20,023 nucleotides of DNA, taken from a virus. The position numbers were made by a program, and so were the translations under genes. The DNA is taken from IMG/VR virus record IMGVR_UViG_3300022744_000117, positions 1 to 20,023 of that record. The stretch is one strand, 5' to 3'. Every line of letters begins with the position of its first letter. Positions within the stretch are counted from its first letter, which is position 1. Below are positions 2,715 through 19,890 of the stretch, one piece after another. The notes under the pieces were generated by a model. It saw only the letters and a program-made list of their open reading frames with translations, was not told where the DNA came from and made no database searches.

Positions 2715-2717
2715 GAT

Positions 2718-3334: not shown

Positions 3335-3340
3335 GCCCGG

Positions 3341-4108: not shown

Positions 4109-4127
4109 GATGGATCTCCTGGAAAAT

Positions 4128-4148
4128 AAAAACCCGCACAAGGCGGGT
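4128..4148 (-). terminator. Intrinsic-terminator-like hairpin upstream of the tail tube gene
   Basis: The minus strand has stem ACCCGC, loop CTTGT and stem GCGGGT, followed by a run of Ts. It lies in the gap between the tail terminator gene stop (4169) and the tail tube start (4108). Confidence 0.75.
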
Positions 4149-4168
4149 TCGGTGGGGTGGTTGGTGCG

Positions 4169-5621: not shown

Positions 5622-5626
5622 GGTTC

Positions 5627-5905
5627 TTACTCGGTGGTGCCAGCGGCGGCCTTGGCGGCAGCTTCGGCTTCAGCAGCAGCGGCCTTGGCCTGTGCCTTCG
5701 CTTCGGCCTTGGCGGCAGCTTCGGCAGCCTTGGTGGTGGCGGCGATGTCCTCGGCCGTCAGGGCGACCTGCTTGAAGCCGTGCGGGGCCAGCAAGGAATG
5801 GTAGTCGCCGTTTTCCGGCACTTCGATCTGGCCTTTGTTGTCGACGTTGAACTGTTCGCCGCCGACAGAAATGCCGGTGCAACCTTCAGGGGCTTGGTAC
5901 TTCAT
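5627..5905 (-). CDS. Small head-region protein with Ala/Lys/Glu-rich tail
   Basis: The 92-aa product has a folded-looking N-terminal half (MKYQAPEGCTGISVGGEQF, then VDNKGQIEVPENGDYHSLLAPHGFKQV) and a C-terminal half made almost only of A, K and E that should form one long helix. Similar small proteins occur between the major capsid and connector genes of many siphophages; their function is not certain, and a decoration or capsid accessory role is only inferred. GGAG lies 8 bp before the ATG at 5905. A terminator-like hairpin separates it from the capsid gene. The helix is encoded in part by a 22-bp direct repeat. Confidence 0.75.
   Translation of the reverse strand: MKYQAPEGCTGISVGGEQFNVDNKGQIEVPENGDYHSLLAPHGFKQVALTAEDIAATTKAAEAAAKAEAKAQAKAAAAEAEAAAKAAAGTTE
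5647..5725. repeat. 22-bp direct repeat in the Ala-rich coding tail
   Basis: The same 22-bp sequence occurs at 5647-5668 and 5704-5725, 57 bp (19 codons) apart and in the same frame, encoding the A/E/K helix of the small head protein. It probably reflects in-frame duplication, so copy number may vary without breaking the gene. Confidence 0.85.
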
Positions 5906-5929
5906 GGTTTGAATCTCCTGTCAGAAAGG

Positions 5930-5954
5930 AAAAAGGGGAGGCCGAAGCCCCCCC
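5930..5954 (-). terminator. Intrinsic-terminator-like hairpin downstream of the capsid gene
   Basis: On the minus strand an 8-bp stem (GGGGGGGC with GCCTCCCC, one G-U pair) closes a UUCG tetraloop and is followed by TTTTT. It lies between the capsid stop at 5974 and the next start at 5905. Confidence 0.8.
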
Positions 5955-5973
5955 TTGCACAGCGCCGTAGCGA

Positions 5974-7650
5974 TCAGCCGTTGGCGATGTTGCTGATGAC
6001 GCCCATGGAGAACGGCGCGTAGTGCTGCAGGACGCCGTCGGCATAGACGCCGTACTCGTACTTGCGGGTGCGCAGCGGCCACTCCAGTTGGTAGTAGTCC
6101 TGACGCAGCAGCATCTGGGCGACGTTCGACACGTTGGCCAGCGGGTAAGGCAGGCGCTCGGTGTAGAAGAAGACCGTACCGGCCGGCATGTTGGGATGCA
6201 CGACGATAGGCACTTCCTGACCAGTGACCTTGTTCCAGTAGGAACCGACCACGATACCGGCCGCGATGGCGTTGGTCTGGGCGTTGATGTTGGCGTTCAG
6301 CTTCAACAGCGGGGCGCCACCGTTCGCGATCACCTTCTTGGTGATGTTGATCAGTTCCTGTGCCGACACGTAAATCTTGGTCGGCGACAGGCGGTAGCGG
6401 TTGTAGAAGTACACGAACGCCTGCTCGAATTCCACGATGCCGCCAGCGCCGTCAGAGGTCAGCGGCGTGCCTTGGCCGGCGGTGCCGGTCGGCTGCTGAA
6501 CCACGTAGGCACCGCTGCCCGACTTGATGGCTTGATACAGCAGGCCGTCGAAGTCCAGCGCGGAAGTGGAGTTGTCGGAAGCTGCCAGCGTGGAGGCCAG
6601 TTGCGCGGCACCGTTCGACGCGGCGGTGATGACCGTCGAGTTGATGGAGGTGACAGCGTTCAGGCGCTCGGAACCGGCCGGGCCAACGAACCAGGCATAA
6701 CCGACAGCGCCGGCAACCGGAGCGACGGTCGCGGAAATCGAGCCGGTGGAGCCGGTCGTTGCCACGGTGGCGCTGGCCGACTTCTGGGCAGAGCCGCCGC
6801 CGAAGGTGTCGGAGGTGCCGTCAGCGTTGGTGCGGGTGATCTGGCACGGGACGACAGCGGTGGAGGCGTCGAAGTACTGGCCGGTGGAGCCGTTGTTCAC
6901 GCCGACGACGTCGAGGTAAGCCTGCAGGCCGAGAGCCACGCAGATGACGGACCACGTTGCGGCAGACAGGGTGCCGCCAGTGGTGGAGCCAGCCAGCGTC
7001 GGGGTCGGGGTCGTACCCATGCTGACGGAGGTGTTGCCGCCGAGGATCAGGCGCTCTTCCTGAATCATCGTGGCTTCGAGGGTCTGCATGACGGCTAGGG
7101 CCTTCACGTCCTCGTAGTTCTTCGATGCGTAGTTGGCTTCGAAGGTCACGTTGTTTTCCAGACCGAAGCCACGGAAGGCGGCGAAGTACTCGGCCTGGGC
7201 GTGGGTGATCACGCCGCCGCGCTTGCCTTCGGCGACGCCGCCGCGCATGTTGCCGACGTTGATGTTGGTGATCGCCTTCCAGTTGGCCTGCGTCGCGTAG
7301 CCGCCGCCGATACGGGCGATGGAGTTGCGCAGCGGGGTCATGACCGGGTAGAGCTTCTTCGACGGCCCTTCGAGGTTGTAGGCCTGCAGGCCCGAGGTTG
7401 CATTACCCGGCTGGACGAACGACTTGATGATGTCGTCCGGCGAGGATTGGGCTACTTTCAAAAGGGCCAGAGTTTCTGCGGTGGTATTGCTGCCAACGGT
7501 GCCGAGCATGCCGAAGCCGATCATTGTTGCCAGCGAATCGTGGGACGAGGAAACCAGATGGACGACATCGAACCCGGCTGCATGGGCAAGGCCGACAGCC
7601 AGGGCGCCGACTGCGAGAACAATGGCTCGCGTGATGCTGGATTTTTGCAT
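5974..7650 (-). CDS. Major capsid protein with unusual signal-peptide-like N-terminus
   Basis: The 558-aa product lies between the prohead protease and connector genes. It carries capsid-like segments: NINVGNMRGGVAEGKRGG (about 129-146), FGLENNVTFEANYASKNYEDVKALAV (about 162-187), EERLILGGNT (about 198-206), and a C-terminal part with YNRYRLSPTKIYVSAQE and PNMPAGTVFFYTERLPYP. An Ig/fibronectin-like insert lies near residues 290-345 (GAVGYAWFVGPAGS). The first 25 residues look like a Sec signal peptide: MQKSSITR, a hydrophobic core, then AHA before AGFD; another hydrophobic stretch lies near 41-52. The start at 7650 has AGGA 8 bp upstream. A longer frame from 7683 would start inside the terminator T-tract and is rejected. 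Hairpins flank the gene on both sides. Confidence 0.85.
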   Translation of the reverse strand: MQKSSITRAIVLAVGALAVGLAHAAGFDVVHLVSSSHDSLATMIGFGMLGTVGSNTTAETLALLKVAQSSPDDIIKSFVQPGNATSGLQAYNLEGPSKKLYPVMTPLRNSIARIGGGYATQANWKAITNINVGNMRGGVAEGKRGGVITHAQAEYFAAFRGFGLENNVTFEANYASKNYEDVKALAVMQTLEATMIQEERLILGGNTSVSMGTTPTPTLAGSTTGGTLSAATWSVICVALGLQAYLDVVGVNNGSTGQYFDASTAVVPCQITRTNADGTSDTFGGGSAQKSASATVATTGSTGSISATVAPVAGAVGYAWFVGPAGSERLNAVTSINSTVITAASNGAAQLASTLAASDNSTSALDFDGLLYQAIKSGSGAYVVQQPTGTAGQGTPLTSDGAGGIVEFEQAFVYFYNRYRLSPTKIYVSAQELINITKKVIANGGAPLLKLNANINAQTNAIAAGIVVGSYWNKVTGQEVPIVVHPNMPAGTVFFYTERLPYPLANVSNVAQMLLRQDYYQLEWPLRTRKYEYGVYADGVLQHYAPFSMGVISNIANG

Positions 7651-7681
7651 GGTAGTGATCCTTATTTGATGGAGTTGAAAC

Positions 7682-7701
7682 AAAAAACCGCCCGAAGGCG
7701 G
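7682..7701 (-). terminator. Intrinsic-terminator-like hairpin upstream of the capsid gene
   Basis: On the minus strand CCGCC, a UUCG loop and GGCGG are followed by six Ts. It lies between the protease stop (7728) and the capsid start (7650). Only about 30 bp separate the T-tract from the capsid start, too little for a full promoter. Confidence 0.8.
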
Positions 7702-7727
7702 CGAATGGCTTGGTTGATGGGGCCGGC

Positions 7728-9110
7728 TTACGCTGCTTTGCCGGAGTGGATGGACTTGATCAGGGTTGCTACTTCATTGACCTCGCCCTTGTGGTCGGTC
7801 ACGGGATCGACCTTGGTAGCGTTGTCATTGACGGTTTCGCCGGAGTCGGCTGCTTTCGCGATGGCCTTCAGCAGTGCCTTGCCCGGGGCGGGCATGGCTT
7901 CCAGTTCGGCAACGCGCTTGGTCAGGGTGTCGCGCTGGACGGCCAGGGCCTTGACGAAGTCGGCGGCGATTTCGCCTTCCTTGCAGCCAACCGCCGCGCA
8001 GGCTTTCAGCAGATCGTCGTGGGCTGCGCTGACCTTCTTCAGATCGTCGCCCTTGGCTGCCTTGTCGGCGTCGTCGTCCTTTTCATCATCCTCGTCAGCA
8101 TCGGCATAGCCGAGCTTGTTGAGGTGGTCGCAGGCTTCCTGCGCTGCCTTGTGGATCGCGCCAAGCGCCTCCTTGGTGGATTTGCTGAAGCGCTTGCCGG
8201 CCTTCGCCAGATCGATGCCGCGCGCGGCCATCTCGATCACATCGACGTCGCCGGCCTGCGCCTTGAGTTGGGCCAGCAGTTCGGCGGTTTCCTCGGCGGC
8301 CATGTCCTTGAAAATCTGGATGCCGGTGGCGAACCAGGCGCGAAGCTGGGCCGGGATCGGGCTGTTGTCGCCCTCGTAGTCGGCCTCGCACTGCGCGTCC
8401 TGACAAATCCAGCCGAGGGTGTAAATCACAGAGGCGAAGTCCTGCACGGACCACATGCCCTTCTTGAGATCGTCGCCAATCGCGGCAGCGGTCTTCGTTT
8501 CAGCAGGGGCGGCTTCCGTTCCGGTTTTCTCGCCTTCCGTTCCGCTTTCGGCCGGTTTTGTTTCGCCCTTCGCCAGTTCCAGCAGGCGTTCCGGGGTGAC
8601 GTCGCCCTTGTTCAGAAGATCGGCCAGCGCATCGACGGCGCTGATTTCCTCGACGGTCTCGGCCTTGTACATGGTGAAAACCGCGTCAGGGTTGGCCGGG
8701 CGATCAACCAGGCTGACTTCGATCAGCTTCAGGCCCTTGATGACGGCCTTGTTCAGTTCGTCGCGCTCGGTGACCTTGCCGCCGATGCTGAAGCCTTTGT
8801 AAACGCCGGCCTTGACCTTCTTGACGGCCTCGGAATCGACGACGTGAGCGCCGAACCACGTCTTGCCGTCTTCCAGTACCTCGGCCTCGATAGCGGTGCC
8901 TGCGGCCTTCGGTTGGTGCATTTCGCGGACGGCGCCGAACTTCATGTAGTCGGGCAGCGCTGCCTTCATCGCGTCGGCGGTGATGGTTTCGCCGTCACTG
9001 TCTTTGGTCTCGGTGCTTGCGAAGCCCCAGACCTTAATCGTGCCGTCGTCAAGTTCCTCGGTCTTGGAGAGGTCGATGCTGGCGAAGATTTTTTTCAGGG
9101 TTTTGCTCAT
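7728..9110 (-). CDS. Prohead protease (S78/XkdF-type) with C-terminal scaffold-like region
   Basis: The 460-aa product has an N-terminal protease part of about 150 residues. It reads IKVWGFASTETKDSDGETI, with candidate catalytic His65 in REMHQPKAAG, Ser108 in YKGFSIGGKV and Asp136 in IEVSLVDRPANPDA, typical of XkdF/S78-like capsid maturation proteases. The remaining 300 residues are helical and very acidic and include a DADEDDEKDDD stretch near residue 340, as expected for a scaffold that guides capsid assembly and is then removed by the protease. No separate scaffold gene is seen, which supports a fused role. An AAAGGA motif lies 8 bp before the ATG, and the portal gene ends 12 bp upstream. 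The protease call is firm; the scaffold role is inferred. Confidence 0.88.
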   Translation of the reverse strand: MSKTLKKIFASIDLSKTEELDDGTIKVWGFASTETKDSDGETITADAMKAALPDYMKFGAVREMHQPKAAGTAIEAEVLEDGKTWFGAHVVDSEAVKKVKAGVYKGFSIGGKVTERDELNKAVIKGLKLIEVSLVDRPANPDAVFTMYKAETVEEISAVDALADLLNKGDVTPERLLELAKGETKPAESGTEGEKTGTEAAPAETKTAAAIGDDLKKGMWSVQDFASVIYTLGWICQDAQCEADYEGDNSPIPAQLRAWFATGIQIFKDMAAEETAELLAQLKAQAGDVDVIEMAARGIDLAKAGKRFSKSTKEALGAIHKAAQEACDHLNKLGYADADEDDEKDDDADKAAKGDDLKKVSAAHDDLLKACAAVGCKEGEIAADFVKALAVQRDTLTKRVAELEAMPAPGKALLKAIAKAADSGETVNDNATKVDPVTDHKGEVNEVATLIKSIHSGKAA

Positions 9111-9122
9111 GGGAAAGTCCTT

Positions 9123-11318
9123 TCAGGATTGTTCGTCGTCGATTACGGGCAGTACGTCGCACCGGCATTGCGGGTGCAGTGGGCAGTCCTTCCCGCCTTC
9201 GAAAGTGCCGTCGACCGGCGCTGTCTTGCCGTTCATGTCTTGGCATTCGTCGCAGCACTCGTCTGCAGTGAGCCATTCCTTTTTGCTGACCAGTCCGCTG
9301 GACTTCCAGCCTTCGACTGATCCGGCAATGTCGGCCCGGGCGATTTCGGTTCTGGCGATGACCTCGGCGCGCTTCTCGCTGAAGGCGTAGTCATCAAGGA
9401 TGGCGTTAGCCATGTCCTGAGTGCTCCAGCCATCGTCAAGCGCCTGCTCAGTGATGCCGCGCAACCATTCACGGGTGCCATCGGTGATTTGCCACTGAGC
9501 GTTCGGGTTGGGTACCAACTCGCCGTCGACCAACTTCATGCCGACCATTTCGGCTGCCCGGTCGCTGGCCCATGCTTCGGCGCGCTTGCGCATCAGGTCG
9601 TCGATGTCGTCCGACTCGATCCCGATCTGCGATAGCGCCTCGCTGCCGCCGGAAACGGCAATCGACGCCAGATACGGTTCGACGGTTTCGACCAGATCGC
9701 CCCAGTCGTCAAAGTCGAGAGAATCGACGATGTGACGGGCTTTCTCGCGGGTGCCGCCGCCCTGGTCGGACTTTTCCAGCCCCATCAGGTCGGCAAGCTG
9801 CTCGGCGATCTTCGGCGCCTGTGCCTTCAGAAAGCCGGCGACGGCCTTCGCCATCTTCTTGGTGGCGCGACCTACTGCCGGGCGGTCCCGGTCAATAGGC
9901 CGCACGCCTTTTTTTGCCTTGGTCATCGCCTCCTTGTCGGGCGGTGCCTTGTCATCCGGCTTCTTCCCGTTGCCGGGCGGCTCGGGGTCGTCTTCGGGCG
10001 GGTCGTCCTCGCCAAGGCCAAGCATCGGCGGTGGTGCCGGCCAGGCTGCGTCGCGCTGCTCCTGCGTCAGCGGTTCCTTGCCCAGATCGGCGCGGACCTC
10101 GTCCGGCGTCATGACCTTGGCGGCCACGTAGATGGCGGCAATCTCGGCCTTTTCTTTCGGCGTCGTGATTTCGTCATCGACCCATGCGAATTCGAGGTCA
10201 GTGATGCCGAAGTAACGCACGATGACCGAGTCGATCATCGACTTGACCCAGTTCTTGTTCGGAGCCAGGCCTTCGGAGAGCGATTGCTCCCGGGAGGTTG
10301 TGGCGGTGGCCCGATTGACCTGGGCGACGAACGGCGTCGGCTCGATGCTGAAGCAGAAGCAGACCACGCGCGCCAGCCATTCGTCGTACATGTCCTTGAG
10401 CGGCGGCTGCTTGATCTCGACCGGCTTCGCGCCTTCGGGGATGAAGCGGCCGTAGTGCTTGCTCTGGCCCTGCGTGATGGTGTCCCACCACTCCTGAAAG
10501 AGTCTGATCTGGTCCGGGTTCCACTCTTTCGGCACCGAGAAAAGCAGGTTCGGGACGTTGCCCTCGGTGTAGTAGCTCAGTTGGTTGGCCTGCCGGCGCA
10601 ACGCGATATTGACCGTGATGATGATCTGCTCGACCGGGCTGTAGCCATAGACCTTGTGGGTCCGGACGTTGCGAGGCATGTAGAGCAGTTCGTCGCGGGT
10701 GTAGTTGATCGCCGGCACGCCCTTGAGAATCTGCTGATAGGCAGGGTCCGGGGCAAGCGGCGTGCGGCCAAAGTCATCCAGCACGCGCTTGATCGTGGCG
10801 CCGTCGACCGGCTCCAGTGCGTACAGTTCGCCGCCGAGGGTGTGGCGGGGATAGACGGTCGGGGCATCGATGACGAACAAGTCCTCGAGCAGCATGCGCA
10901 ACCACGTCGACCAGTTGTGCTCCTTGTCGGGCTGCAGGAAGAACTTGGTCAGTTCGTCGCAACGGGCGTCCGGCTTGGCCTTGTCGTCCTTCGGCTTGAT
11001 GTGCCACTTCAACTTCTCCATCTGATCCTTGCGGGTCTCGATGACCAGCCGGAGGATGTCGTAGTTGTCGGCCAGGGCGCGCATCTGGTCGAACGTGACG
11101 GCCTCGCCAGTGCGCGGGCGCGTCTGGGTGTTGTAGCCGACCTGATAGTCGAACTGGCGACCAATGACGGACGGCTTCTGCTCGGCCGGGACCATCTCCG
11201 GCAGCGGGGCCATCGGCCCGAACCAGTCCGGCGCCTTGCCGGTGATCGCCAGGCGCAGGCCTGCGGCCACGCGCGCAACGATGCCCGGCTCAATGGGGGT
11301 TTTGGTTGGTTGGGTCAT
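9123..11318 (-). CDS. Portal protein fused to MuF-type minor head protein
   Basis: The 731-aa product joins two head proteins. Residues 1 to about 435 read as a portal (Mu gp29/DUF935-like: ALADNYDILRLVIETRKDQMEKLKW, LLEDLFVIDAPTVYP, VYGYSPVEQIIITVNIALRRQ, RATATTSREQSLSEGL). A Pro/Asp/Lys-rich linker follows at about 435-470. The rest resembles MuF head morphogenesis proteins, with RAEVIARTEIARADIAG near 650 and a C-terminal Cys/His cluster (CCDECQDMNGKTAP, then CPLHPQCRCDVLPV). The portal forms the DNA entry ring, and MuF proteins are injected or internal head proteins. The 29-bp overlap with the end of the terminase gene suggests coupling. No stop or frameshift separates the two parts, so the fusion is in the sequence as given. 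Confidence 0.9.
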   Translation of the reverse strand: MTQPTKTPIEPGIVARVAAGLRLAITGKAPDWFGPMAPLPEMVPAEQKPSVIGRQFDYQVGYNTQTRPRTGEAVTFDQMRALADNYDILRLVIETRKDQMEKLKWHIKPKDDKAKPDARCDELTKFFLQPDKEHNWSTWLRMLLEDLFVIDAPTVYPRHTLGGELYALEPVDGATIKRVLDDFGRTPLAPDPAYQQILKGVPAINYTRDELLYMPRNVRTHKVYGYSPVEQIIITVNIALRRQANQLSYYTEGNVPNLLFSVPKEWNPDQIRLFQEWWDTITQGQSKHYGRFIPEGAKPVEIKQPPLKDMYDEWLARVVCFCFSIEPTPFVAQVNRATATTSREQSLSEGLAPNKNWVKSMIDSVIVRYFGITDLEFAWVDDEITTPKEKAEIAAIYVAAKVMTPDEVRADLGKEPLTQEQRDAAWPAPPPMLGLGEDDPPEDDPEPPGNGKKPDDKAPPDKEAMTKAKKGVRPIDRDRPAVGRATKKMAKAVAGFLKAQAPKIAEQLADLMGLEKSDQGGGTREKARHIVDSLDFDDWGDLVETVEPYLASIAVSGGSEALSQIGIESDDIDDLMRKRAEAWASDRAAEMVGMKLVDGELVPNPNAQWQITDGTREWLRGITEQALDDGWSTQDMANAILDDYAFSEKRAEVIARTEIARADIAGSVEGWKSSGLVSKKEWLTADECCDECQDMNGKTAPVDGTFEGGKDCPLHPQCRCDVLPVIDDEQS

Positions 11319-12756
11319 TGGTCTTCGCCTGTTGGGCTTGCTGGGCCATCTGCTGCATGTAATCCAGCATCCCGAAGTTGTGGATGTTCAATTCGTCGAA
11401 GGCGTCCGAGCCGGCGTCGACTTGGTCGTCGTGCGAACCGTTCGGAAACACGCGCTTTTCGCTGACCAGGGCATCGTTCCATTCGGCACGCAGCATCATC
11501 ACGTTGCCGACATTGACCTGGGCGGCGAACGGTTCGCCTCGGGTGATCTTGTCGCCTGATACTGGCTTCGCTGTAACGGTGTAGCCGGCCAGCAGTTTGG
11601 TAAAGTTGGCTGCCTGCGATTTGCCGGCTTGCCCGGGGTCTTGGGGAATCCGAATGCGAACGCCCGGACCGTCCCGCTTCGCCGTGTTGAGCAGCGCGGC
11701 CTCGACCGTTTCCGGCCCACCGCGCAACCTGACGATGTCGGCAATGATCCAGCGGCCCGACGGTGTAACGCCAAGCTTGTAGCCGACCGTCCAGTCAGGG
11801 TCTTTGCCGGGTTCCTCGATGCTGGCGGCAAAGTCCCATGCCCTGACAAATCGCGTGTCTGCCGGAATGGCGTCGACGATCTCGATCTTGTCTGGCTTGA
11901 AGATGTTGCCCTCGGGCGGTGCCGGTCGCTGCTGGTACTGCCCAGCGAACGTGTAGGGCGCGGCAGACTGCATTCGGCGCAGCACCTCAACGCTGTGCTT
12001 CTCCGGCCACAAGGCCGTTCCGTCCTCTCGCAACGCAGGAAGGCAAACAAGCTCCCATTCCTCGCCGTTGCCACCATTGAGCAGCCAGCCGGCCAGATCG
12101 TTCTCATGCAGGCGCTGCATGATCAGGATGATCGGGGTGTCCGGGCTGTTCTTCCGGCTTTCGAGCGTGTTCTGGAACCACTCGATGACGCCTTGCCGGA
12201 TCACGTCGCTGCGCGCTTCGTCAGCCTTGTGCGGGTCGTCGATGATGATGGCGCCGCCGAATCCTTCTCGGTGCTTACCTGCACCGTATCCGGTGATGGT
12301 GCCGCCCGCGCCGGTTGCATAGACGATGCCGCCGGCAGTTGTTCTCCATTCGTCCTTCGCCTTGCTGTCGTCCCGCAGCGTGGTTCCGGGGAAGATGCTC
12401 CGGAACTCGGGGGACGAAACGACCTCGCGGCACTGCCACGAGTTGTTTCCAGCCAGCCGGCCCGAGTAGCTGGTGTGGATGAACTCAGCGTCAGGAACCA
12501 TGCCGAGGCACCAAGCCATCCAATTCACGACCGCCAACTCGGTCTTGGAGTAGCGCGGTGGGATGTTGATGATCAGGCGCTTGGTGCGACCGATGAAAAC
12601 CCGGTCAAGTGCGCTGCAAATCTCCTGATGGTGAGGTGCGCGCAGCCACTGAAACCCTTTGCGCTGCAGGAACATCCAGCGGGCGAAGAAGTAGAAATCA
12701 GTTCTGGCTTTTTTCCTCGCCTCGGCCATTTCTTTGGGCGAGAAGTTACGGCGCAC
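11290..12756 (-). CDS. terL: Terminase large subunit
   Basis: The 488-aa product is the ATP-driven DNA packaging motor and nuclease. Visible motifs are the Walker A-like IPPRYSKT (65-72), Walker B IIIDDP (170-175), the coupling motif LIMQRLHENDLAG (about 211-223) and RNase H-type nuclease acids: Asp308 in VRAWDFAAS, Asp373 in QDPGQAGKSQ and Asp443/444 in NGSHDDQVDAGSDAF. Length is normal for this family. Translation starts with GTG at 12756, with GAGGTG about 6 bp upstream, immediately after the small subunit stop. The C-terminus ends in a Gln-rich tail (MQQMAQQAQQAK). No intein or truncation is seen. Confidence 0.96.
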   Translation of the reverse strand: MRRNFSPKEMAEARKKARTDFYFFARWMFLQRKGFQWLRAPHHQEICSALDRVFIGRTKRLIINIPPRYSKTELAVVNWMAWCLGMVPDAEFIHTSYSGRLAGNNSWQCREVVSSPEFRSIFPGTTLRDDSKAKDEWRTTAGGIVYATGAGGTITGYGAGKHREGFGGAIIIDDPHKADEARSDVIRQGVIEWFQNTLESRKNSPDTPIILIMQRLHENDLAGWLLNGGNGEEWELVCLPALREDGTALWPEKHSVEVLRRMQSAAPYTFAGQYQQRPAPPEGNIFKPDKIEIVDAIPADTRFVRAWDFAASIEEPGKDPDWTVGYKLGVTPSGRWIIADIVRLRGGPETVEAALLNTAKRDGPGVRIRIPQDPGQAGKSQAANFTKLLAGYTVTAKPVSGDKITRGEPFAAQVNVGNVMMLRAEWNDALVSEKRVFPNGSHDDQVDAGSDAFDELNIHNFGMLDYMQQMAQQAQQAKTNDPTNQNPH

Positions 12757-12758
12757 GG

Positions 12759-13151
12759 CTACACCTCTTCGTCGAGTCTCCGGGCAATGGCTGCGGCCTC
12801 TTCTGGCGTAACCGGCCCGGAGGTCTCAATCGGCCCGCCGTCACGGCCTGACAACTCGACCGCCTGCGGTGATTCCTTCCAGCGCGCCCTGGTTTTCAGC
12901 CAGAAGATCATCGCCGTCGTGTCACCACTGAGCGCTTTCGAATAAAGCGTCATGGCGATCTTGGCGTTGGCTTTCACCCGGCCGGTGTCCAGTTCTGCTT
13001 GGAAATGCTTGCGCAGGGTTTTCTCTGCGATGGGCTTGCCTGCCTTGTCGAGGATCAGGGCGGTCATTTCCTCGACGGGAATGCCGAAGGCGGCGAACTG
13101 CTCGACCAGCTTGCGCTGCTCGTCAGTCGGTTGGAATGTCGGCCTTGCCAT
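12759..13151 (-). CDS. terS: Terminase small subunit (DNA-recognition)
   Basis: The 130-aa product begins MARPTFQPTDEQRKLVEQFAAFG and has a helix-turn-helix-like part (IPVEEMTALIL, then GKPIAEKTLRKHFQAELDTGR) followed by NAKIAMTLYSKALSGDTTAMIFWLKTRARWKE, a combination common in small terminase subunits of proteobacterial phages. It would bind the packaging site and hand DNA to the large subunit. It lies directly before the large subunit with a 2-bp gap. The chosen ATG at 13151 overlaps the upstream methyltransferase gene by 29 bp; upstream AAAGG is only a weak ribosome-binding motif, so reinitiation is likely. A 12-residue longer form is possible. Confidence 0.85.
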   Translation of the reverse strand: MARPTFQPTDEQRKLVEQFAAFGIPVEEMTALILDKAGKPIAEKTLRKHFQAELDTGRVKANAKIAMTLYSKALSGDTTAMIFWLKTRARWKESPQAVELSGRDGGPIETSGPVTPEEAAAIARRLDEEV

Positions 13152-14448
13152 GATCGTTGCCTTTCCGGGCGGCCTCGATGTCGGCAAAGGTCATGTCCGA
13201 TTCGCCGAGGTGCGCCTGCTGCCCGGTGAAGTCCTGCCAGCGCTTCACGATCACGTCGCAGTAGCGCGGGTCCAACTCCATCAGGCGTGAATGCCTGCCG
13301 GTTTTCTCGCAGGCGATCAACGTCGAGCCAGAGCCGCCGAACAGGTCGAGCACCACATCACCGCCCCGGCTGCTGTTCGTGATCGGGTACTCGATCAGCG
13401 CCACGGGTTTCATGGTCGGGTGCACATCGTTCCGGCTCGGCCGGTCGAAGTTCCAGACGGTCGTCTGCTTGCGGTCGCTGTACCAACGGTGCGGTCCGGT
13501 TGGCTTCCAGCCGTACAGCACCGGCTCGTGTTGCCAGTGGTAATCCTGCCGACCCATGACAAGCGACTGCTTGACCCAGATGCAGCACTGCGCCAGCTTG
13601 AATCCGGCGTCGGTCATGGCCTTGCGAAAGTTCATGCCCTCGCTGTCGGCGTGAAACACGTACAGCCCGGCGCCGTCTTTGGCGACCGAGAACATGGCCG
13701 TGTAGGCGTCGAGCAGGAAGCGGTAGAAAGCCTCGCCCGACATGGAGTCGTTCTGGATCGTCAGCTTGTCCGACGTGCCGCCCTGGTAGGCGACGTTGTA
13801 CGGCGGGTCGGTGACGATCAAGTCGGCCTTGTAGCCGTCCATCAGGCGGGCCACGTCGTCGATGCTGACGCTGTCGCCGCACATGACTCGGTGATTGCCA
13901 AGGCGCCAGATGTCGCCAGCCTGTGACACGGGGTCGGCCGGTGGCTCGGGCGTTTCGTCGTCCTCAGTCAAGCCGGCTTTCGGCTCGGTCGGGAACATGT
14001 CGCCAAGCTCCAACTCGTCGAAGCCAGTCAGCGACAGGTCGAAGCCGTCTGCTTGCAATTCTCCAAGCTCAAGGGCCAGCAACTCGGAGTCCCAGCCGGC
14101 CAGCTCCGCCAGCTTGTTGTCGGCGATCACGAAGGCGCGGAACTGCGCGTCAGTCCAGCCGGAGGCGTCCAGCACGGGCACCGTGCCATCGGGGAACGGC
14201 TCTGCGCACTGAGCACGGCCGGGCGGTGGATACAGGCGCTTGCCGGCGGCGTAGAGCTTGCGGACGGCGGCCAGTGTGCCGTGGCCCTTGGCGATGACAC
14301 CGTCGCGCACCACTATGGCGCCCACCATGCCGAACTCGTCGAGGCTGGCGGCAATCTGGGCCACCTGGCTGTCCGAGTGGGTGCGGCTGTTCCGGGCGTA
14401 CGGAATCAGCGCCTCGATGGGCCTGTGCTCAATCGATAGCTTGGACAT
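13123..14448 (-). CDS. ParB-domain / beta-class DNA methyltransferase fusion
   Basis: The 441-aa product has a ParB/sulfiredoxin-like N-terminus (residues 1 to about 115: MSKLSIEHRPIEALIPYARNSRTH, VVRDGVIAKGHGTLAAVRKL) and a C-terminal N6-adenine/N4-cytosine methyltransferase domain. Catalytic motif DPPY is at 214-217 and the SAM-binding FGGSGST at 370-376; this order (catalytic motif first) is beta class. No restriction nuclease is adjacent, so it is an orphan methylase that may protect phage DNA or act near packaging. It is the second gene after the late promoter, directly before the small terminase. The start at 14448 lacks a clear ribosome-binding motif. A longer frame from 14523 would run through a terminator hairpin. 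The specificity cannot be read from the sequence. Confidence 0.92.
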   Translation of the reverse strand: MSKLSIEHRPIEALIPYARNSRTHSDSQVAQIAASLDEFGMVGAIVVRDGVIAKGHGTLAAVRKLYAAGKRLYPPPGRAQCAEPFPDGTVPVLDASGWTDAQFRAFVIADNKLAELAGWDSELLALELGELQADGFDLSLTGFDELELGDMFPTEPKAGLTEDDETPEPPADPVSQAGDIWRLGNHRVMCGDSVSIDDVARLMDGYKADLIVTDPPYNVAYQGGTSDKLTIQNDSMSGEAFYRFLLDAYTAMFSVAKDGAGLYVFHADSEGMNFRKAMTDAGFKLAQCCIWVKQSLVMGRQDYHWQHEPVLYGWKPTGPHRWYSDRKQTTVWNFDRPSRNDVHPTMKPVALIEYPITNSSRGGDVVLDLFGGSGSTLIACEKTGRHSRLMELDPRYCDVIVKRWQDFTGQQAHLGESDMTFADIEAARKGNDHGKADIPTD

Positions 14449-14486
14449 GGTTTTAATAGCCGGTAAAAACGCAGGGCGCGGGGAAT

Positions 14487-14521
14487 AAAAAAGCCCGCAA
14501 CAGGCTGAAACCTGCGCGGGC
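14487..14521 (-). terminator. Intrinsic terminator after the first late-leader gene
   Basis: On the minus strand GCCCGC pairs with GCGGGC, the inner CAGG and CCTG add further pairs, and TTTTTT follows. It lies downstream of the small gene ending at 14573 and upstream of the methyltransferase start at 14448. Confidence 0.85.
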
Positions 14522-14572: not shown

Positions 14573-14818
14573 TTAATCCGGGGCTTCCGTGAATGTCACG
14601 TAATAGCGCTTGCCCGGCTTGAAAAACTCAGCAGCCGGGGCGTTGGCGTCGATTTGCATCCAGCACTCGCCGGATGGGGTTGCCTTCGTAAAGGCTTCGT
14701 TTTCTCCACCCTTGCCATAGATCGCGCCAAGGCGAACTTTGTGACATTGGTAGGTTTCGGAATAACGCGTCGTTTCGACGGCGTTGCAATTCATCTTCGC
14801 CACTACTGCTTGGCTCAT
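14573..14818 (-). CDS. Small conserved phage protein of unknown function
   Basis: The 81-aa product starts MSQAVVAKMNCNAV and contains VRLGAIYGKGGENEAFTKATPSGECWMQIDANAPAAEFFKPGKRYYVTFTEA. I recall similar proteins of about 75-85 aa in many phages (a charged N-terminus, then ATPSG, then FxPGKxYYxxFTEA), but I know no function. The start at 14818 has GGAGA 7 bp upstream. The frame stays open further upstream to 15007, but that would cover the late promoter and terminator and is rejected. It is the first gene after the late promoter and is bracketed by two intrinsic terminators, so it may be transcribed at a basal level even without antitermination. Confidence 0.75.
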   Translation of the reverse strand: MSQAVVAKMNCNAVETTRYSETYQCHKVRLGAIYGKGGENEAFTKATPSGECWMQIDANAPAAEFFKPGKRYYVTFTEAPD

Positions 14819-14898
14819 GGTGTTTCTCCTGTAAATGCCCAATGGGCTGGGTAGTACAGGCTTTTGTCTTGCGGTCTTACGGCCTGAAAAAAGGCAAC

Positions 14899-14928
14899 AA
14901 AAAACCCGCCGGCTTTCGCGGGGCGGGT
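14899..14928 (-). terminator. Intrinsic terminator just downstream of the late promoter (tR'-like)
   Basis: On the minus strand ACCCGCC pairs with GGCGGGT (7 bp), with a partly paired interior, followed by six Ts. It lies roughly 30-55 nt after the predicted start of transcription and before the first downstream gene (14818). Confidence 0.85.
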
Positions 14929-14962
14929 CTTGGGGGGAATGCGGGTACTTATCTGAAATCGG

Positions 14963-14991
14963 ACTATACTGGGCATTGTTTGCCCGGTCAA
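14963..14991 (-). promoter_or_regulatory. Strong sigma70-type late promoter (pR'-like) with inverted repeat in spacer
   Basis: On the minus strand the -35 TTGACC (14991-14986) and the -10 TATAGT (14968-14963) are separated by exactly 17 bp. The -35 includes the TGA stop of the Q-like gene. The spacer holds a perfect inverted repeat, GGGCA, 5 bp, TGCCC (14985-14971). In lambda, the Q binding element lies between -35 and -10, so this repeat is a candidate binding site for the Q-like protein. Transcription would start near 14954-14957. Confidence 0.8.
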
Positions 14992-15593
14992 GCCCCAACC
15001 ATGCCAATGTCCCTCAAACGTTCCTCGATGGCCTCGAAAGCGATGTGCTCCATCCCCGGGACGCTCGGCTTGTCCTTCTTCGCCTGAATCCCTGCGAAGT
15101 AGGCCATGACCTTGCCGTCGTGCGCGCTGACCGTGTTGCGGGCAATGTCGTGCTTCTCGGCCAGAGCCTCAAGGCTGACCCGCTCTTCCTTCTTCGAGAA
15201 GTAGCGGACGACGTACTCGCGGCGCATCAGGCCGTTGGCAATGCATCCGGCGAGGGCCGTAGTGCGAACGTGGTCCGACAGCGTGGCAATGGCGTCCGTC
15301 CATTCCTTGTTCGGCTTCTGTCCGGAGCAGCAGGAGGAACGGCACTGGCATGGCGTAGAGCGCGGAGCAATGCGCGCGATCAGGATCGCTTCGGCCAGCT
15401 TGCCCATGGCTTTGACCTCGGCGCGGATCATGCCGGCCTGACCGGCACCATCGAGACCGGACAAGCCTTTGCCGGCGAGGCGCGGCTCGTCTGCCAGTCG
15501 GTTCATCACCGGACGATCGTAGGACTGACCCGAGAAGTTGAAGGCAAACACCAGTGCGCTGTGTGCGCTTGTGAAAAGGCTCTCTCCCTGCAT
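14988..15593 (-). CDS. Q-like late antitermination protein (putative)
   Basis: The 201-aa product has a middle cysteine cluster (PCQCRSSCC, Cys82, 84, 88, 89) and a C-terminal helix-turn-helix-like segment, VSLEALAEKHDIARNTVSAHDGKV (139-162). Zn-like Cys clusters occur in some phage Q proteins. The strongest support is position: it is the last gene before a strong promoter whose -35 overlaps its stop, and that promoter is followed at once by a terminator, as in lambda Q-pR'-tR'. It starts with TAATG (ATG at 15593, sharing one base with the stop of the upstream gene) and GGAGA at good spacing. I do not recognise a specific named family, so another DNA-binding late regulator is the main alternative. 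Confidence 0.65.
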   Translation of the reverse strand: MQGESLFTSAHSALVFAFNFSGQSYDRPVMNRLADEPRLAGKGLSGLDGAGQAGMIRAEVKAMGKLAEAILIARIAPRSTPCQCRSSCCSGQKPNKEWTDAIATLSDHVRTTALAGCIANGLMRREYVVRYFSKKEERVSLEALAEKHDIARNTVSAHDGKVMAYFAGIQAKKDKPSVPGMEHIAFEAIEERLRDIGMVGA

Positions 15594-15799
15594 TACTCGC
15601 TCTCCTTGTAAATCGTACATTTCCCCTTGCGGCCAACCTTACGGCCCATGCTGCACGTGGCGAAAATCCGCTCTCCCGATGCGTCAAAGGTCAATCTCGC
15701 GCACCCTTTGCAGCCTTTCAGGCGGTGTTCGACTGCGTTTTCCTTGTCGATCATGACCTGCAGCGGGTCACGGTATTTGTGGGCTGGCAGGATCGTCAC
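15593..15799 (-). CDS. Small Cys-rich (zinc-ribbon-like) phage protein
   Basis: The 68-aa product begins with GTG at 15799 (VTILPAHKYRDPLQVMIDKE as translated codons) and has CKGC (residues 30-33), Cys49 and Cys61, a possible four-Cys zinc site. The C-terminus is basic (MGRKVGRKGKCTIYK). It has a GTGA overlap with the RusA stop and GGTGG upstream, so it is coupled to rusA. Similar small proteins occur near rusA and Q genes in lambdoid prophages; a role in regulation or DNA binding is possible, but I do not know a function. A longer frame starting at 15997 overlaps rusA in another frame and is a shadow. Confidence 0.7.
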   Translation of the reverse strand: MTILPAHKYRDPLQVMIDKENAVEHRLKGCKGCARLTFDASGERIFATCSMGRKVGRKGKCTIYKESE

Positions 15800-16215
15800 A
15801 GTGCGACCACCTTCACGAAAGCCCGAGCGGTGTCGGAATAGCGCTTGATGACCTTCACGTCGACCGCCTGCTTGTCGTCCTTGAAAACGATCTCGTTGCA
15901 GGCGTCCATGATCCCCTTGAGCACGTTGTCGACGTCGGGCTTGCTGACCGGGAACACGGTACCGGCCAAGGCCTCGCGCTGCTTCTTCTGGCTCCAACTG
16001 GCCGGCGGTGTGACGAACAGGGCAATCTCGACAGAGACAGCGCCCTCGAAAAGCGGCTTGCCCTGCATAGCTTCCTCGGCTTTGACCTTGACAAGGTTCT
16101 CGTAGCTGGCCGTTTTCTCCGGCGTGTAGGCGCTGACGAAGTTTCCACGGCGGGCAAATTTCGGTCTCCCCTTGCCGACTGGCGTGCCTGGCACGACGAA
16201 TGCGATGGTTGTCAT
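15796..16215 (-). CDS. rusA: RusA-type Holliday-junction resolvase
   Basis: The 139-aa product starts MTTIAFVVPGTPVGKGRPKF and has the RusA active-site region KPDVDNVLKGIMDACN (residues 92-107), with Asp94 and Asp96, and a second acidic part FKDDKQ with Asp113/114. This matches the catalytic aspartates of RusA-family crossover junction endodeoxyribonucleases, which cut four-way junctions during phage recombination and replication. Length is close to the 120-140 aa norm. The start at 16215 has GGAG upstream and an ATGA overlap with the preceding small gene. A frame extending to 16425 is rejected because it overlaps the upstream gene by 210 bp. Confidence 0.93.
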   Translation of the reverse strand: MTTIAFVVPGTPVGKGRPKFARRGNFVSAYTPEKTASYENLVKVKAEEAMQGKPLFEGAVSVEIALFVTPPASWSQKKQREALAGTVFPVSKPDVDNVLKGIMDACNEIVFKDDKQAVDVKVIKRYSDTARAFVKVVAL

Positions 16216-16466
16216 TTTGTTTTTTTCTCCTTGATGTTGAGGAACTTCAAGCCAGGCCAGCGTTGCAGTCCTGAGCGTTGATCGGGGTCGGACCTGTCCG
16301 GCCTGTAGCCTTCGCAGCGGCGCAGAAGCTTCCGGTCTGGCTCGTAGTTCCGTCCGGCGACGATTTCGCCCCGGCGTGCGGCCATGCACGGGCCGTAGCT
16401 GCCGATCTGGGTGCATGTGGCGCACGTGCGTCGGTCGTCGGTGTCTGGGATGGTTGGGAGCGACAT
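16212..16466 (-). CDS. Small Cys-rich phage protein of unknown function
   Basis: The 84-aa product (start MSLPTIPDTDDRRTCATC) has CATC (residues 15-18), Cys26 and a later Cys in RRCEGYRP, plus a DPDQRSGLQRWPGLKF segment. Four Cys in CxxC..C..C order suggest a small metal-binding fold. I recall similar proteins with RRCEGY and RWPGL in phages of GC-rich proteobacteria, without a known function. The second ATG (16466) is chosen because AGGGGAG lies 10 bp upstream; it starts 1 bp after the DUF1376 stop. An earlier ATG at 16487 would add seven residues and overlap that stop. Confidence 0.72.
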   Translation of the reverse strand: MSLPTIPDTDDRRTCATCTQIGSYGPCMAARRGEIVAGRNYEPDRKLLRRCEGYRPDRSDPDQRSGLQRWPGLKFLNIKEKKTK

Positions 16467-16467
16467 A

Positions 16468-17406
16468 TCAGACGCGCTCCCCTGCATCTATTCGGGCCTT
16501 CCTGACCTGTTCTTCGGTGACGCCTGCGCTGGCAAAAACCCGGTCTTTGAACTGGTAAAACTGTTCTCCGGATAGTTGCGCAATCCCAAGCTCGGCGGCT
16601 TTGGCCTCGATGCCTGGCGAGGTCATAAACCAAGCCTTCGGCGGTGGCAGCTTGCCGACCGCGCTGGGGCAGGTTACCTGCTTCATGACCTTGGCCACGA
16701 ACACGTCGAGGAACCCGGCGTTGATCGCGGCGGTGTCGCCCTTGGTGATTCGATCATCGACAGCCCATTCGTAGGCAAGGGCAAGCTGGTCGTAGGTAAC
16801 GCCTGCATCTGCCCACGCTTGCAGCCTTGGGTCTTGGGCTTGAATGGCTGCCATCTTCCCCCGAGCCTTTTCCCATCCCCTGATCGCCACAGCGAAGCGA
16901 ACGGCGGCGCTCAGTTCTTCGCCGGAGCTACCAGTGGTTAAATCGCTGCTGCTCGCTATAGGTTTTATATCTGGTGTCTGGTGTCTGGTGCTTGGTGCTT
17001 GGTGAGCTTTCTGTTGGGTTTCGTTTTCAGAACCGACAAATAACCCGGTTGGTTTTTGTTGGGTTTCGTTTTCAGAACCTGTAACCGTCTTTTTCGGACG
17101 GCCGCCTTTCTTCCCGTTTTCCTTGGCGGCGATGATCTTGACTTGCGCCTTGATGATTTCTGCATCGGCACGCTTGTTGATCCAGACATCGCCATTCAAC
17201 GTGAAAAACTCGCCGAGAATGTCGTCGACGGCCTGCTTCTCTTCCTTGGTGCGGGCGCGGGCGAGGCGGTGAGCCTGCGAAGCCGGAATCCCGGCCTCGG
17301 TGCTGTAGTACCTGTCGAGCAGCAGGTTGTAAGCACCGTGCTCAAGCATTGATAGGTGGGCGGTGTCCTTGGCATAGTCGCCGAGGTGTCGTTCGTAATA
17401 GTTCAC
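16468..17406 (-). CDS. DUF1376-domain replication-type protein
   Basis: The 312-aa product starts with GTG at 17406 and reads NYYERHLGDYAKDTAHLSMLEHGAYNLLLDRYY, the hallmark of DUF1376 (YdaU type), often found where phages keep replication initiation genes. Residues 1 to about 95 form this domain. Residues 105-150 are a low-complexity linker with GSENETQQK twice (110-118 and 125-133), then HQAPSTRHQTPDI. A helical C-terminal part with WEKARGKMAAIQ and GFLDVFVAKVMKQV follows. GGAGGG lies upstream, and GTGA overlaps the methyltransferase stop, which fixes the start; the frame extends 48 codons further but only as overlap. No helicase loader or DnaB is visible nearby. The replication role is inferred from context. 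Confidence 0.85.
   Translation of the reverse strand: MNYYERHLGDYAKDTAHLSMLEHGAYNLLLDRYYSTEAGIPASQAHRLARARTKEEKQAVDDILGEFFTLNGDVWINKRADAEIIKAQVKIIAAKENGKKGGRPKKTVTGSENETQQKPTGLFVGSENETQQKAHQAPSTRHQTPDIKPIASSSDLTTGSSGEELSAAVRFAVAIRGWEKARGKMAAIQAQDPRLQAWADAGVTYDQLALAYEWAVDDRITKGDTAAINAGFLDVFVAKVMKQVTCPSAVGKLPPPKAWFMTSPGIEAKAAELGIAQLSGEQFYQFKDRVFASAGVTEEQVRKARIDAGERV
16969..17003. repeat. Heptanucleotide tandem repeat (five units) inside the DUF1376 gene
   Basis: On the plus strand five 7-bp units follow each other: ATCTGGT, GTCTGGT, GTCTGGT, GCTTGGT and GCTTGGT. They encode part of the linker of the DUF1376 protein. Because 7 is not a multiple of 3, gain or loss of one unit would shift the frame. 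Confidence 0.85.
17012..17079. repeat. 23-bp direct repeat in the DUF1376 linker
   Basis: Identical 23-bp copies lie at 17012-17034 and 17057-17079, 45 bp (15 codons) apart and in frame. Each encodes GSENETQQ-type sequence in the linker. Confidence 0.88.
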
Positions 17407-19229
17407 GCTGCCCTCCGCGTGATTGCCATATCGGACAGGTTTGCCTTTACCAGCGCAGCGGCAAGAGGTGGACAGACGCTGTTGCCGCACATTCGGACCT
17501 GCGCCGATTTGGTCAGAGTGATGCGCTTGCCCTCGGGACTGATGCCCCACTCCGTGATGTAGGACTCGGGGAAGCCTTGCGCCCTGAAAAGCTCCTTCGG
17601 GGCCAGCATGCGCAGTCCTATGTCTGCGATGGCGTATTCCTCTCCGGCGACGGTTACGAGGCCGTAGCGGTCCTTGGTGGTAACCGTATGCAGGGGTTCC
17701 TGCATGTTCGGGTCTTGGTCGGTGCCGTAGTACTTGATCAGGAAGGCGCGAACCTCTGCGAAGTGGGTGCCCTGGGCGCTGATGGTATGCAGCTGTTCGT
17801 CAGTCGGTTGTCCGTCCTGGCTGGTGCCGCGCAGCTTGACCATGTTGCTGGTGACGATGCCGTGGACGTTCCCTGTGCTATCCCTGACGGGATTTCCGCC
17901 GGCAGTAATCGTGTGGATCGGCTCAGCCAGATCGCTGCCAACGGATCCTGAGCGAAACTTCGTCAGGTGAGCAGTTACCAGGCTGTTGTGATCCGAACTG
18001 GTGACCGTATGCAGCGGTTCGCCATGCAGGCTGTGGCCGACAACGCCGCCGTAGTGCTTCGCCATGAAGGCTGAAACCAGCGCGTGCTTCTGGCTTCCGA
18101 CCAACGTTCCAAGCGGCTTTGCCATATCGAGCGCCCGTGGTGCCTGGCCATCGCGTTCGCCGTATCCGGTCTGGACTAGCGTCGGCGCAATCAGCGCATG
18201 GTGTCCGCCCTTCGTCTGCGCGCAGATGGTGCGCAACGGTTCATCCACCGGCATGCAGCGCGGGGTCGAGGCGTTGGCGTGTTCGGTCAGGACGGGAACA
18301 ACAATGGCGCGATGGTTTTCAACAGTAAGCGTGCCGAATGGCTTGTTGGTCGGTACTGGCTTTCCTGAAAACGTTGGCCCCCCTGCGCCAACGATGAACG
18401 GCTCGGCCGCATTCACCACGTAGCGCATGATCCCTTTGGCGATCCGGCGCAGCGTGGCGTCGGCCAGCGGTCGGGAACGCTCAAAGATCGACGGACATGG
18501 CAGTGAGAAGTCGATGCACTCAGCAGCGGTGCGCCACGGATGCATTACCGCCCCGTCTGAATTAAGAATGCGGCCATTGCGCCCCTTGAATCGCTTATCC
18601 GTCGGGTCGTAGTGCGTCGGCTCCGGCCAGACAATCGGCTGTCCATCGCGCCGGGCGATCAGGAATAGGCGCTTGCGGATCGTCGGCGTGCCGTAATCGC
18701 AAGCGCGCAGCTCGCGGTGCTCGACCTGATAGCCCTGTCGGCGAAGTGCGTTGCAGAAGGCATTGAACTCACGCCCCTTGTTTTTTGGGCAGGGTCGGGC
18801 TTTGCCTTCGGCGTCGACCACCAGCGGCCCCCAGGTGCGGAACTCTTCGACGTTCTCGAGCATGATGACACGGGGCCGAGCCACAGCGGCCCAGCGCAGC
18901 GCCACCCAGGCGAGGCCGCGAATCTTCTTCTCGACTGGCTTGCCGCCCTTGGCCTTGCTGAAGTGCTTGCAGTCCGGCGACAGCCAGACCAGACCGACCG
19001 GGCGGCCCTGCGTGACTTCGCGGGGATCGATTTCCCACACGCTCTCGCAGTAGTGCTTCGTCTCCGGGTGGTTGGCCGTGTGCATTGCGACGGCTTCCGG
19101 ATCGTGATTGATGGCAATGTCGACGCGGCGACCGAGCGCAAGCTCGATGCCCGTAGATGCACCACCTCCACCAGCAAAGTTGTCGATGATCAACTCGCCG
19201 TGAATATCGAGATTGAGTTGCATGGTCAC
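17403..19229 (-). CDS. Orphan DNA (cytosine-5) methyltransferase with seven-repeat recognition region
   Basis: The 608-aa product has C5-methyltransferase motifs: SAM-binding DNFAGGGGAST (16-26), catalytic loop LSPDCKHFSKAKGG (83-96; Cys87 in a P-D-C rather than P-P-C context), ENV (125-127), TIRKRLFLIAR (183-193) and the C-terminal CGNSVCPP (581-588). Between motifs VIII and IX, residues about 277-530 hold seven imperfect repeats of 30-40 aa with a core like EPLHTVTxxDxxxLV. The family is larger than typical bacterial enzymes (about 330-420 aa) because of this region. No restriction enzyme gene is nearby. It probably protects phage DNA from host nucleases. GTG at 19229 is chosen: GGAGGG lies 5 bp upstream and GTGA overlaps the previous stop; ATG at 19223 is an alternative. 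Confidence 0.95.
   Translation of the reverse strand: MTMQLNLDIHGELIIDNFAGGGGASTGIELALGRRVDIAINHDPEAVAMHTANHPETKHYCESVWEIDPREVTQGRPVGLVWLSPDCKHFSKAKGGKPVEKKIRGLAWVALRWAAVARPRVIMLENVEEFRTWGPLVVDAEGKARPCPKNKGREFNAFCNALRRQGYQVEHRELRACDYGTPTIRKRLFLIARRDGQPIVWPEPTHYDPTDKRFKGRNGRILNSDGAVMHPWRTAAECIDFSLPCPSIFERSRPLADATLRRIAKGIMRYVVNAAEPFIVGAGGPTFSGKPVPTNKPFGTLTVENHRAIVVPVLTEHANASTPRCMPVDEPLRTICAQTKGGHHALIAPTLVQTGYGERDGQAPRALDMAKPLGTLVGSQKHALVSAFMAKHYGGVVGHSLHGEPLHTVTSSDHNSLVTAHLTKFRSGSVGSDLAEPIHTITAGGNPVRDSTGNVHGIVTSNMVKLRGTSQDGQPTDEQLHTISAQGTHFAEVRAFLIKYYGTDQDPNMQEPLHTVTTKDRYGLVTVAGEEYAIADIGLRMLAPKELFRAQGFPESYITEWGISPEGKRITLTKSAQVRMCGNSVCPPLAAALVKANLSDMAITRRAA
17640..18401 (-). repeat. Seven-copy degenerate protein repeat region within the C5 methyltransferase
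   Basis: The codons for residues about 277-530 encode seven related units, with cores GTLTVENHRAIVV, RTICAQTKGGHHALI, GTLVGSQKHALVS, HTVTSSDHNSLVT, HTITAGG with VHGIVTS, HTISAQGTHFAEV and HTVTTKDRYGLVT. DNA copies are partly conserved: ACCGTATGCAG occurs near 17683 and near 18004 on the plus strand. Confidence 0.8.
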
Positions 19230-19435
19230 GAAACCCTCCGTGGGCTATGGCACATCACGCAGGTGAAGCGGCCTGACTTGCTGTACTTGCCGCTGGCGGC
19301 CGTCCGTATCTTTCCGCAGCAGCAGCACAGATCGCGTGCCGGGATTTTGGTGATACCTGGCAGTGTGTCGCGCGCAGTTCGTTCGCGCTGGCGGTCCTGC
19401 GCATAGGGCAGTGATGGGTGATAGAGGTCGGTCAT
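19226..19435 (-). CDS. Small Cys-rich phage protein (zinc-binding-like)
   Basis: The 69-aa product begins MTDLYHPSLPYAQDRQRERT and has a run CCCC (residues 45-48) and a later CVMC before HSPRRVS. The Cys pairs about 17 residues apart, flanked by basic residues, look like a small zinc finger that could bind nucleic acid; this is inference. The start at 19435 forms ATGA with the regulator stop and has AGGGG upstream; the next gene overlaps with GTGA. An earlier ATG at 19459 would overlap the regulator by 28 bp and is less likely. I do not recognise a named family. Confidence 0.72.
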   Translation of the reverse strand: MTDLYHPSLPYAQDRQRERTARDTLPGITKIPARDLCCCCGKIRTAASGKYSKSGRFTCVMCHSPRRVS

Positions 19436-19890
19436 TTTTGCCCCTTCGGTTCCCGGCAATAAATCCGGAATGTCAGGGCCATTAGTTCTTCGACGGTGCG
19501 GTGAATGTGCTGGCTGACATCGGTCAGGTCGGCGCGCTCCCTGTTGTCGATCTCGCCGTCAGCGACCGACTCCTTGAACTTGGTCGAAAGTTCACCAAGT
19601 TCGGAATAAAGCTCGTTGAACTTGGCAAGTAATTCGTCTCGGTCGATGTTGCTGTGTTCGGGCAGCTTCATGAAAACGCCGCCGGACAGTTGGGCGATTG
19701 CATCGGCAAAGAACGTCGTACCGGAGGTGTGCTGCATCTGGATCGCGGTTTCGACCAGCAGCGACTGGCCCTTGCGTTCGTAGATGCGGTTCTCAAGGCA
19801 CATGCGGCTCATGCCGAGAGCGCCGGCCATTGCGTCCCAACCGCCCGGGAATGACTTGATCATGCGCTGATAGGCTTGTTTCAATTCCAC
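19432..19890 (-). CDS. CII/YmfL-like phage regulatory protein
   Basis: The 152-aa product starts with GTG (MELKQAYQRMIKSFPGGWDAMAGALGMSRMCLENRIYERKG), a helix-turn-helix-containing N-terminus that I recognise from the YmfL/CII regulatory family (Phage_CP76) of e14-like prophages. Residues about 45-75 (QSLLVETAIQMQHTSGTTFFADAIAQLSGGVF) belong to the same family. The C-terminal half is helical and acidic, with regions such as DRDELLAKFNELYSELGEL. It would take part in the lysis-lysogeny decision as an early activator or regulator. A G-rich ribosome-binding motif lies about 7 bp before the GTG. It is the first complete gene of the early operon visible here. Confidence 0.85.
   Translation of the reverse strand: MELKQAYQRMIKSFPGGWDAMAGALGMSRMCLENRIYERKGQSLLVETAIQMQHTSGTTFFADAIAQLSGGVFMKLPEHSNIDRDELLAKFNELYSELGELSTKFKESVADGEIDNRERADLTDVSQHIHRTVEELMALTFRIYCREPKGQK

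Follow-up and report, generated by a model that had tools for sequence, protein, structure and literature searches.

The gene at 15593-14988, on the minus strand of a viral DNA stretch of 20,023 nucleotides (IMG/VR record IMGVR_UViG_3300022744_000117, the whole of which is hereafter called the window), very probably encodes a member of an undescribed family of Q/AlpA-type late antiterminators whose dyad binding element lies in the promoter behind the gene, antitermination itself being a predicted activity. Three independent lines support the Q-like reading, namely the predicted fold of the protein, the conserved arrangement of promoter, dyad, GATA element and terminator, and the co-variation of the dyad with the recognition helix. 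The same fold, architecture and dyad co-variation support the suggestion of an earlier note, made from the sequence alone, that this might be a Q type not described before with its predicted binding site in view.

Anatomy of the early/late junction

The gene starts with ATG at 15593, has the ribosome binding site AAGGAG 5' of the ATG and stops with TGA at 14990-14988, within the -35 box TTGACC of a late promoter that matches the consensus at 10 of 12 positions. This overlap, the 17-bp spacer, the TATAGT -10 box, the perfect inverted repeat GGGCA-N5-TGCCC inside the spacer and the intrinsic terminator downstream had all been read from the letters in the earlier note, and each was found again on the minus strand to within a base or two (Table 1). 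The promoter is the sole promoter-like site on the minus strand in 20 kb, and in the window as a whole 2 such sites were found compared to 4.1 expected by chance. Folding a longer stretch around the first terminator gave a z-score of -2.6.

Table 1. Positions of features at the early/late junction and in the late operon of the window.
Feature	Position	Strand	Details
CII-like regulator (phrog_101, PF06892)	19432-19890	minus	upstream of replication genes
C5 cytosine DNA methyltransferase	17403-19229	minus	early side
RusA Holliday-junction resolvase	15796-16218	minus	early side, two genes upstream of the antiterminator gene
Q/AlpA-type antiterminator gene (predicted)	14988-15593	minus	201 aa; AF2 model, fold matches, conserved columns
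Specificity residues	A151 15143-15141; R152 15140-15138; N153 15137-15135	minus	N153 explains the operator half-site best
Recognition helix (predicted, residues 152-167)	15093-15140	minus	helix from AF2 model
Late promoter	14963-14991	minus	-35 TTGACC 14991-14986; -10 TATAGT 14968-14963; 17-bp spacer 14985-14969
Predicted binding element (Q-site), perfect dyad GGGCA-AACAA-TGCCC	14971-14985	minus	in promoter spacer; co-varies with residues 151-153
Candidate sigma-dependent pause signal GATAAG, -10-like	14948-14953	minus	roughly +4 to +9 in the predicted transcript; relatives show in-register enrichment of GATA
Intrinsic terminator, tR'-like	14899-14929	minus	hairpin 14929-14903, then U6; -17.2 kcal/mol, z -3.0
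82-aa gene	14573-14821	minus	between the first two terminators; matches only the C-terminal quarter of phrog_6978
Second intrinsic terminator	14493-14521	minus	3' of the 82-aa gene; z -3.9
Late operon	261-14451	minus	ParB/DNA methyltransferase, terminase small and large subunits, portal, head protease, connectors, tape measure
N6/N4 DNA methyltransferase fused to ParB-like domain	13123-14451	minus	late side
Intergenic terminator within late operon	7687-7702	minus	terminator scan and folding
Intergenic terminator within late operon	5933-5956	minus	terminator scan and folding
Intergenic terminator within late operon	4130-4150	minus	terminator scan and folding

The arrangement is conserved. The gene was directly followed by a promoter and a terminator at 118 of 179 distinct loci of relatives, these being public contigs that were unequally sampled and for which correction for relatedness was approximate, compared to 6 of 341 other long-ORF ends and 3 of 442 random windows. 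A stop codon overlapping TTGAC was seen in many relatives. The GATAAG at the start of the transcript had been offered as a candidate promoter-proximal pause signal and graded weak; the element stood and proved better supported than that grading, as GATA was found in roughly 22 of 37 effective sequences where 3.4 would be expected, in most cases 18-19 nt downstream of where the -10 box begins.

Downstream of the junction, one promoter and five intergenic terminators serve a late operon of about 15 kb, so that the operon needs something that overrides termination. The 82-aa gene would be expressed only if the first terminator were passed. Upstream on the minus strand lie the CII-like regulator, the C5 methyltransferase, a primosomal-type protein and RusA. 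DNA methyltransferase genes flank the early/late junction, one on each side.

The protein family and its predicted fold

The window protein is laid out as N-terminal helices with a flexible loop, a CxCxxxCC cluster at residues 82-89 and a C-terminal helix-turn-helix. The most conserved motif of the family, GxGLxGLDGAxQAGMI (residues 41-56), belongs to the N-terminal part. The cysteine cluster, which had been noticed in the sequence beforehand, is real and consists of C82, C84, C88 and C89, and in the conserved columns C82, C88 and C89 reach 90% conservation or more.

An AlphaFold (AF2) model built from 78 sequences had a pLDDT of 87.6 and a pTM of 0.83 and was confident except around residues 24-39. 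When it was compared to a library of solved structures with VIA-align, AlpA was the top match, its loading complex giving Z 12.9 and its loaded complex Z 11.9, the former alignment covering 145 residues, near full length, at 3.0 Å and 19% identity. Qlambda came second (Z 7.5) and Q21 (Z 4.6) was within background, unrelated rows reaching at most 5.0. A model made for a divergent clade that is 33% identical to the window protein again had AlpA at the top, with Z 11.9 and the next row at 5.1. A whole-length AlpA-type antiterminator fold is predicted for the family, the match resting on a predicted model and helical proteins being able to reach middling Z by chance. The helix-turn-helix-like C-terminus suspected earlier is present in the model, in the fold of the AlpA, Qlambda and Q21 antiterminators. 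Of the earlier proposal of a lambda-type switch, the late-switch reading held, but the nearest solved structure is AlpA and not lambda Q.

AlpA and Q proteins are alike in contacting DNA through a C-terminal helix-turn-helix and in building a ring inside the RNA exit channel from an N-terminal segment (PMC9371919). In the model, the part that corresponds to this segment contains both the loop of low confidence and the GxGLxGLDGAxQAGMI motif, and by this likeness the N-terminal part may act as a nozzle.

Sequence searches gave the protein no name, in line with the earlier failure to recognise a family from the letters. No fitting family was found in Pfam, NCBIfam or PDB sequences and no useful match among PHROGs, the named-family searches returning generic helix-turn-helix matches only. 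The lambda Q family (PF03589) was absent from the Pfam matches of the window protein at E up to 1. With hhalign, the family scored a probability of 0.1 against a single lambda Q sequence and had no significant match to single lambda Q and 21Q-type sequences; in the lambda Q alignment, non-significant overall, GLSGLDGAGQAGMI of the family pairs ungapped with LSGTDVMAAMGMA of lambda Q. Single sequences stood in for deep lambda Q and QuuD profiles because scans for relatives of these proteins gave near-identical copies only. The 21Q family (PF06530) had no Pfam or profile match to the window protein, and the 82Q family (PF06323) matched neither the protein (E up to 1) nor the whole window, control genomes being silent as well. 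When the complete set of PDB chains was searched with profiles, AlpA was absent from the matches at E up to 10. As the named Q families were not reached by sequence, the product of the gene is best named for its fold and anatomy, as a Q/AlpA-type antiterminator, and not for its sequence, as a lambda Q, 21Q or 82Q protein. A search of the open literature, with subscription journals outside its range, found no earlier description of the family.

Some members of the family weakly match sigma-70 region 4, which the helix-turn-helix of 21Q also resembles (PMC6606751), and the protein might on that account be a sigma region 4-like activator that raises initiation at the late promoter. We consider this very unlikely, since a near-consensus promoter with 10 of 12 matches should not need an activator and the terminators would stay unexplained. 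Activators, moreover, usually bind upstream of the -35 box.

Homologues were found in phages of Bordetella, Burkholderia, Achromobacter and Shewanella, where they are annotated as 'hypothetical protein' or 'gp2', and on many IMG/VR contigs. In one Burkholderiaceae-type family, 398 genomes were sampled and 45 of them had prophage homologues, and a phylum-wide genome sample had homologues in few genomes. The family thus ranges over phages and prophages of Burkholderiales and some other Proteobacteria. Members of the window protein's own clade are 69-74% identical to it. Two weak genome hits were set aside: in one (L557) the profile aligned over residues 92-168 only and the protein looks like a generic LuxR-type helix-turn-helix, and in the other (L558) the search placed the match at residues 82-154.

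Co-variation of the promoter dyad with the recognition helix

Taken alone, the window dyad is moderately unusual (p of about 0.007 against shuffles of its own spacer and about 0.05 against other windows of the same sequence). In a first sample of 46 unique spacers a dyad at p<0.05 was found in 54%, with a mean dyad score of 4.9 compared to 3.0 in control windows. Comparison of the repeat at the same position in relatives, a check that had been proposed along with the original reading, showed that symmetry is kept while the letters follow residues 151-153 of the protein, which sit at the start of its predicted recognition helix. ARN and VRN go with the half-site GGGCA, HRN with GTGCA, HVN and HIN with GTGTG, xRD with CCGCA, xRQ with CGACA and DRH with CGCCA.

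Among protein pairs less than 50% identical outside the helix-turn-helix, half-site identity was 0.855 when residues 151-153 all matched and 0.317 when none did. Control windows (upstream of the -35 box, gene end and +1 to +10) showed little or no effect of these residues. A partial Mantel test, which controls for overall identity and is not a full phylogenetic model, gave r 0.33 compared to at most 0.15 in 2000 permutations, and N153 was the top residue among all 201. A smaller effect of residues 151-153 was observed at +11 to +20 of the relatives' transcript (agreement 0.55 compared to 0.29), which may reflect an additional contact or common descent of the promoter block.

The code can be followed within the window protein's own clade, in which residue 153 and half-site change together: N with GGGCA in the window and L063, D with CCGCA in L012, Q with CGACA in L010 and H with CGCCA in L009. 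L062, also of this clade, has D at residue 153 and the expected change of half-site. There are exceptions among close relatives, the dyads of L007 and L011 (both RN) being degenerate and L008 (RQ) having none. The HRHT proteins L522 and L535 have half-sites resembling CGACA or GTACA and not CGCCA, and residue 151 therefore also matters.

The operator rule was set down first, and only then were loci that lack an adjacent promoter scanned; those that could be assigned to a class and had a dyad promoter no more than 3.2 kb away formed the held-out set. The predicted half-site was found in 17 of 18 promoters (12 of 13 unique spacers), compared to 6.5 on average and at most 13 in 5000 shuffles; the rule had first covered all RHT proteins and was narrowed to DRH after L522 and L535 deviated, which adds one failure if counted. 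Most of the held-out promoters lie hundreds of bases to kilobases downstream of the gene because extra genes have been inserted in between.

In L041, L094, L098, L100, L062 and L035 extra genes separate the antiterminator gene from the promoter by 1.3-2.9 kb, which, judged from the sequences, looks like insertion of cargo at the early/late junction. In Achromobacter phage CF418P1 (L004) a tRNA-Val gene (3644-3730) lies between the two.

In many loci, the window included, the dyad starts only a few bases from the stop codon, as it would if it were a 3'-terminal hairpin in the mRNA of the gene itself, or palindromic by chance, and unbound by the protein. We give this reading almost no credence and reject the hairpin, since the letters of the arms track residues 151-153 of the helix-turn-helix and since the dyad moves with the promoter, remaining in its spacer when the promoter is 241-2947 bp away behind inserted genes. 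As far as comparison of sequences can tell, the window protein evidently recognises the dyad between the two boxes of the late promoter, and the site can be predicted from three residues across more than 100 relatives.

A protein that reads a dyad between the -35 and -10 boxes could in principle be a DNA-binding repressor or timing switch that blocks polymerase without antitermination, as this is the classical place of a repressor site. Several observations make such a repressor improbable. Over its whole length the predicted fold is that of antiterminators rather than repressors; the terminator and the GATA element are conserved right behind the promoter; the gene precedes the promoter rather than following it; and an operon with five terminators and no second promoter would be left unexplained.

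A proposed model of the late switch

Under the antiterminator reading, the protein would be produced from the last early gene and its C-terminal helix-turn-helix would bind the inverted repeat between the -35 and -10 boxes of the promoter just behind that gene. It would probably do so as a symmetric pair placed about one helical turn apart, the half-sites being about 10 bp apart, which suggests a pair on one face of the DNA. RNA polymerase starting from the late promoter would probably pause at the -10-like GATA element with sigma still bound. The protein would then move into the RNA exit channel, and its N-terminal segment would serve there as the nozzle that blocks terminator hairpins. Polymerase would read through the first terminator, at 14929-14903, and through four or more others in the late operon.

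We give an even chance to the more specific proposal that this is a separate family whose members load on a palindromic late-promoter site as dimers with two-fold symmetry, with residues 151-153 setting the half-site. If it is true, the late switches of related prophages resident in the same cell would be orthogonal and would not activate each other. A site readable from three residues makes recognition of DNA by an antiterminator directly testable with a few swaps, and it makes hidden late promoters findable in unannotated prophages.

Comparison with known systems

Three sequence-unrelated phage Q families and AlpA have been described so far (PMC9371919). The present family would add a further one and ties AlpA of Pseudomonas more closely to the phage late switch. 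AlpA of Pseudomonas aeruginosa (PDB 7XYA/7XYB; PMC7969949, PMC9371919) is the best structural match, shares the C-terminal helix-turn-helix and has the same order of parts, with an element between -35 and -10, a -10-like element in the initial transcript and a terminator downstream. It contacts its site through K138, S139, T140 and H142 (PMC7969949, PMC9371919), and its K-S-T pattern resembles R152-N153-T154 of the window protein when motifs are compared rather than aligned. In contrast, AlpA has no detectable sequence similarity to the family, controls host lysis genes and binds as one molecule to the non-palindromic GGGACGN5GGTA (PMC7969949, PMC9371919), whereas the window family adds the conserved cysteine cluster and the dyad site.

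Lambda Q (PF03589; PDB 7UBN), the second-best structural match, shares the order of last early gene, promoter with terminator and late genes as well as a binding element in the promoter spacer, but has no Pfam or profile similarity and a different arrangement of cysteines. Phage 21 Q (PF06530; PDB 6P18/6JNX) likewise has a late antiterminator fold and two subsites in the promoter; these are, however, direct repeats of TGAGCA bound by two protomers (PMC6606751) rather than an inverted repeat, and its sequence does not match. The GATA element agrees in position and kind with the -10-like pause element needed by Q proteins and AlpA.

The family profile matched no Gaf protein at the 30 DUF6456 (GafY/GafA) loci that were searched. 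GafZ of the Caulobacter gene transfer agent is an antitermination protein, and a palindrome between -10 and -35, GCGCCCG-CTGGCGC, is essential for its binding (PMC11150451). It differs in acting together with GafY and in the chromosome, and its authors found no resemblance in structure to AlpA or Q (PMC11150451), whereas the window protein matches AlpA. With 21Q on direct repeats and AlpA binding as a single molecule, the site of GafZ is the sole palindromic one of this kind described.
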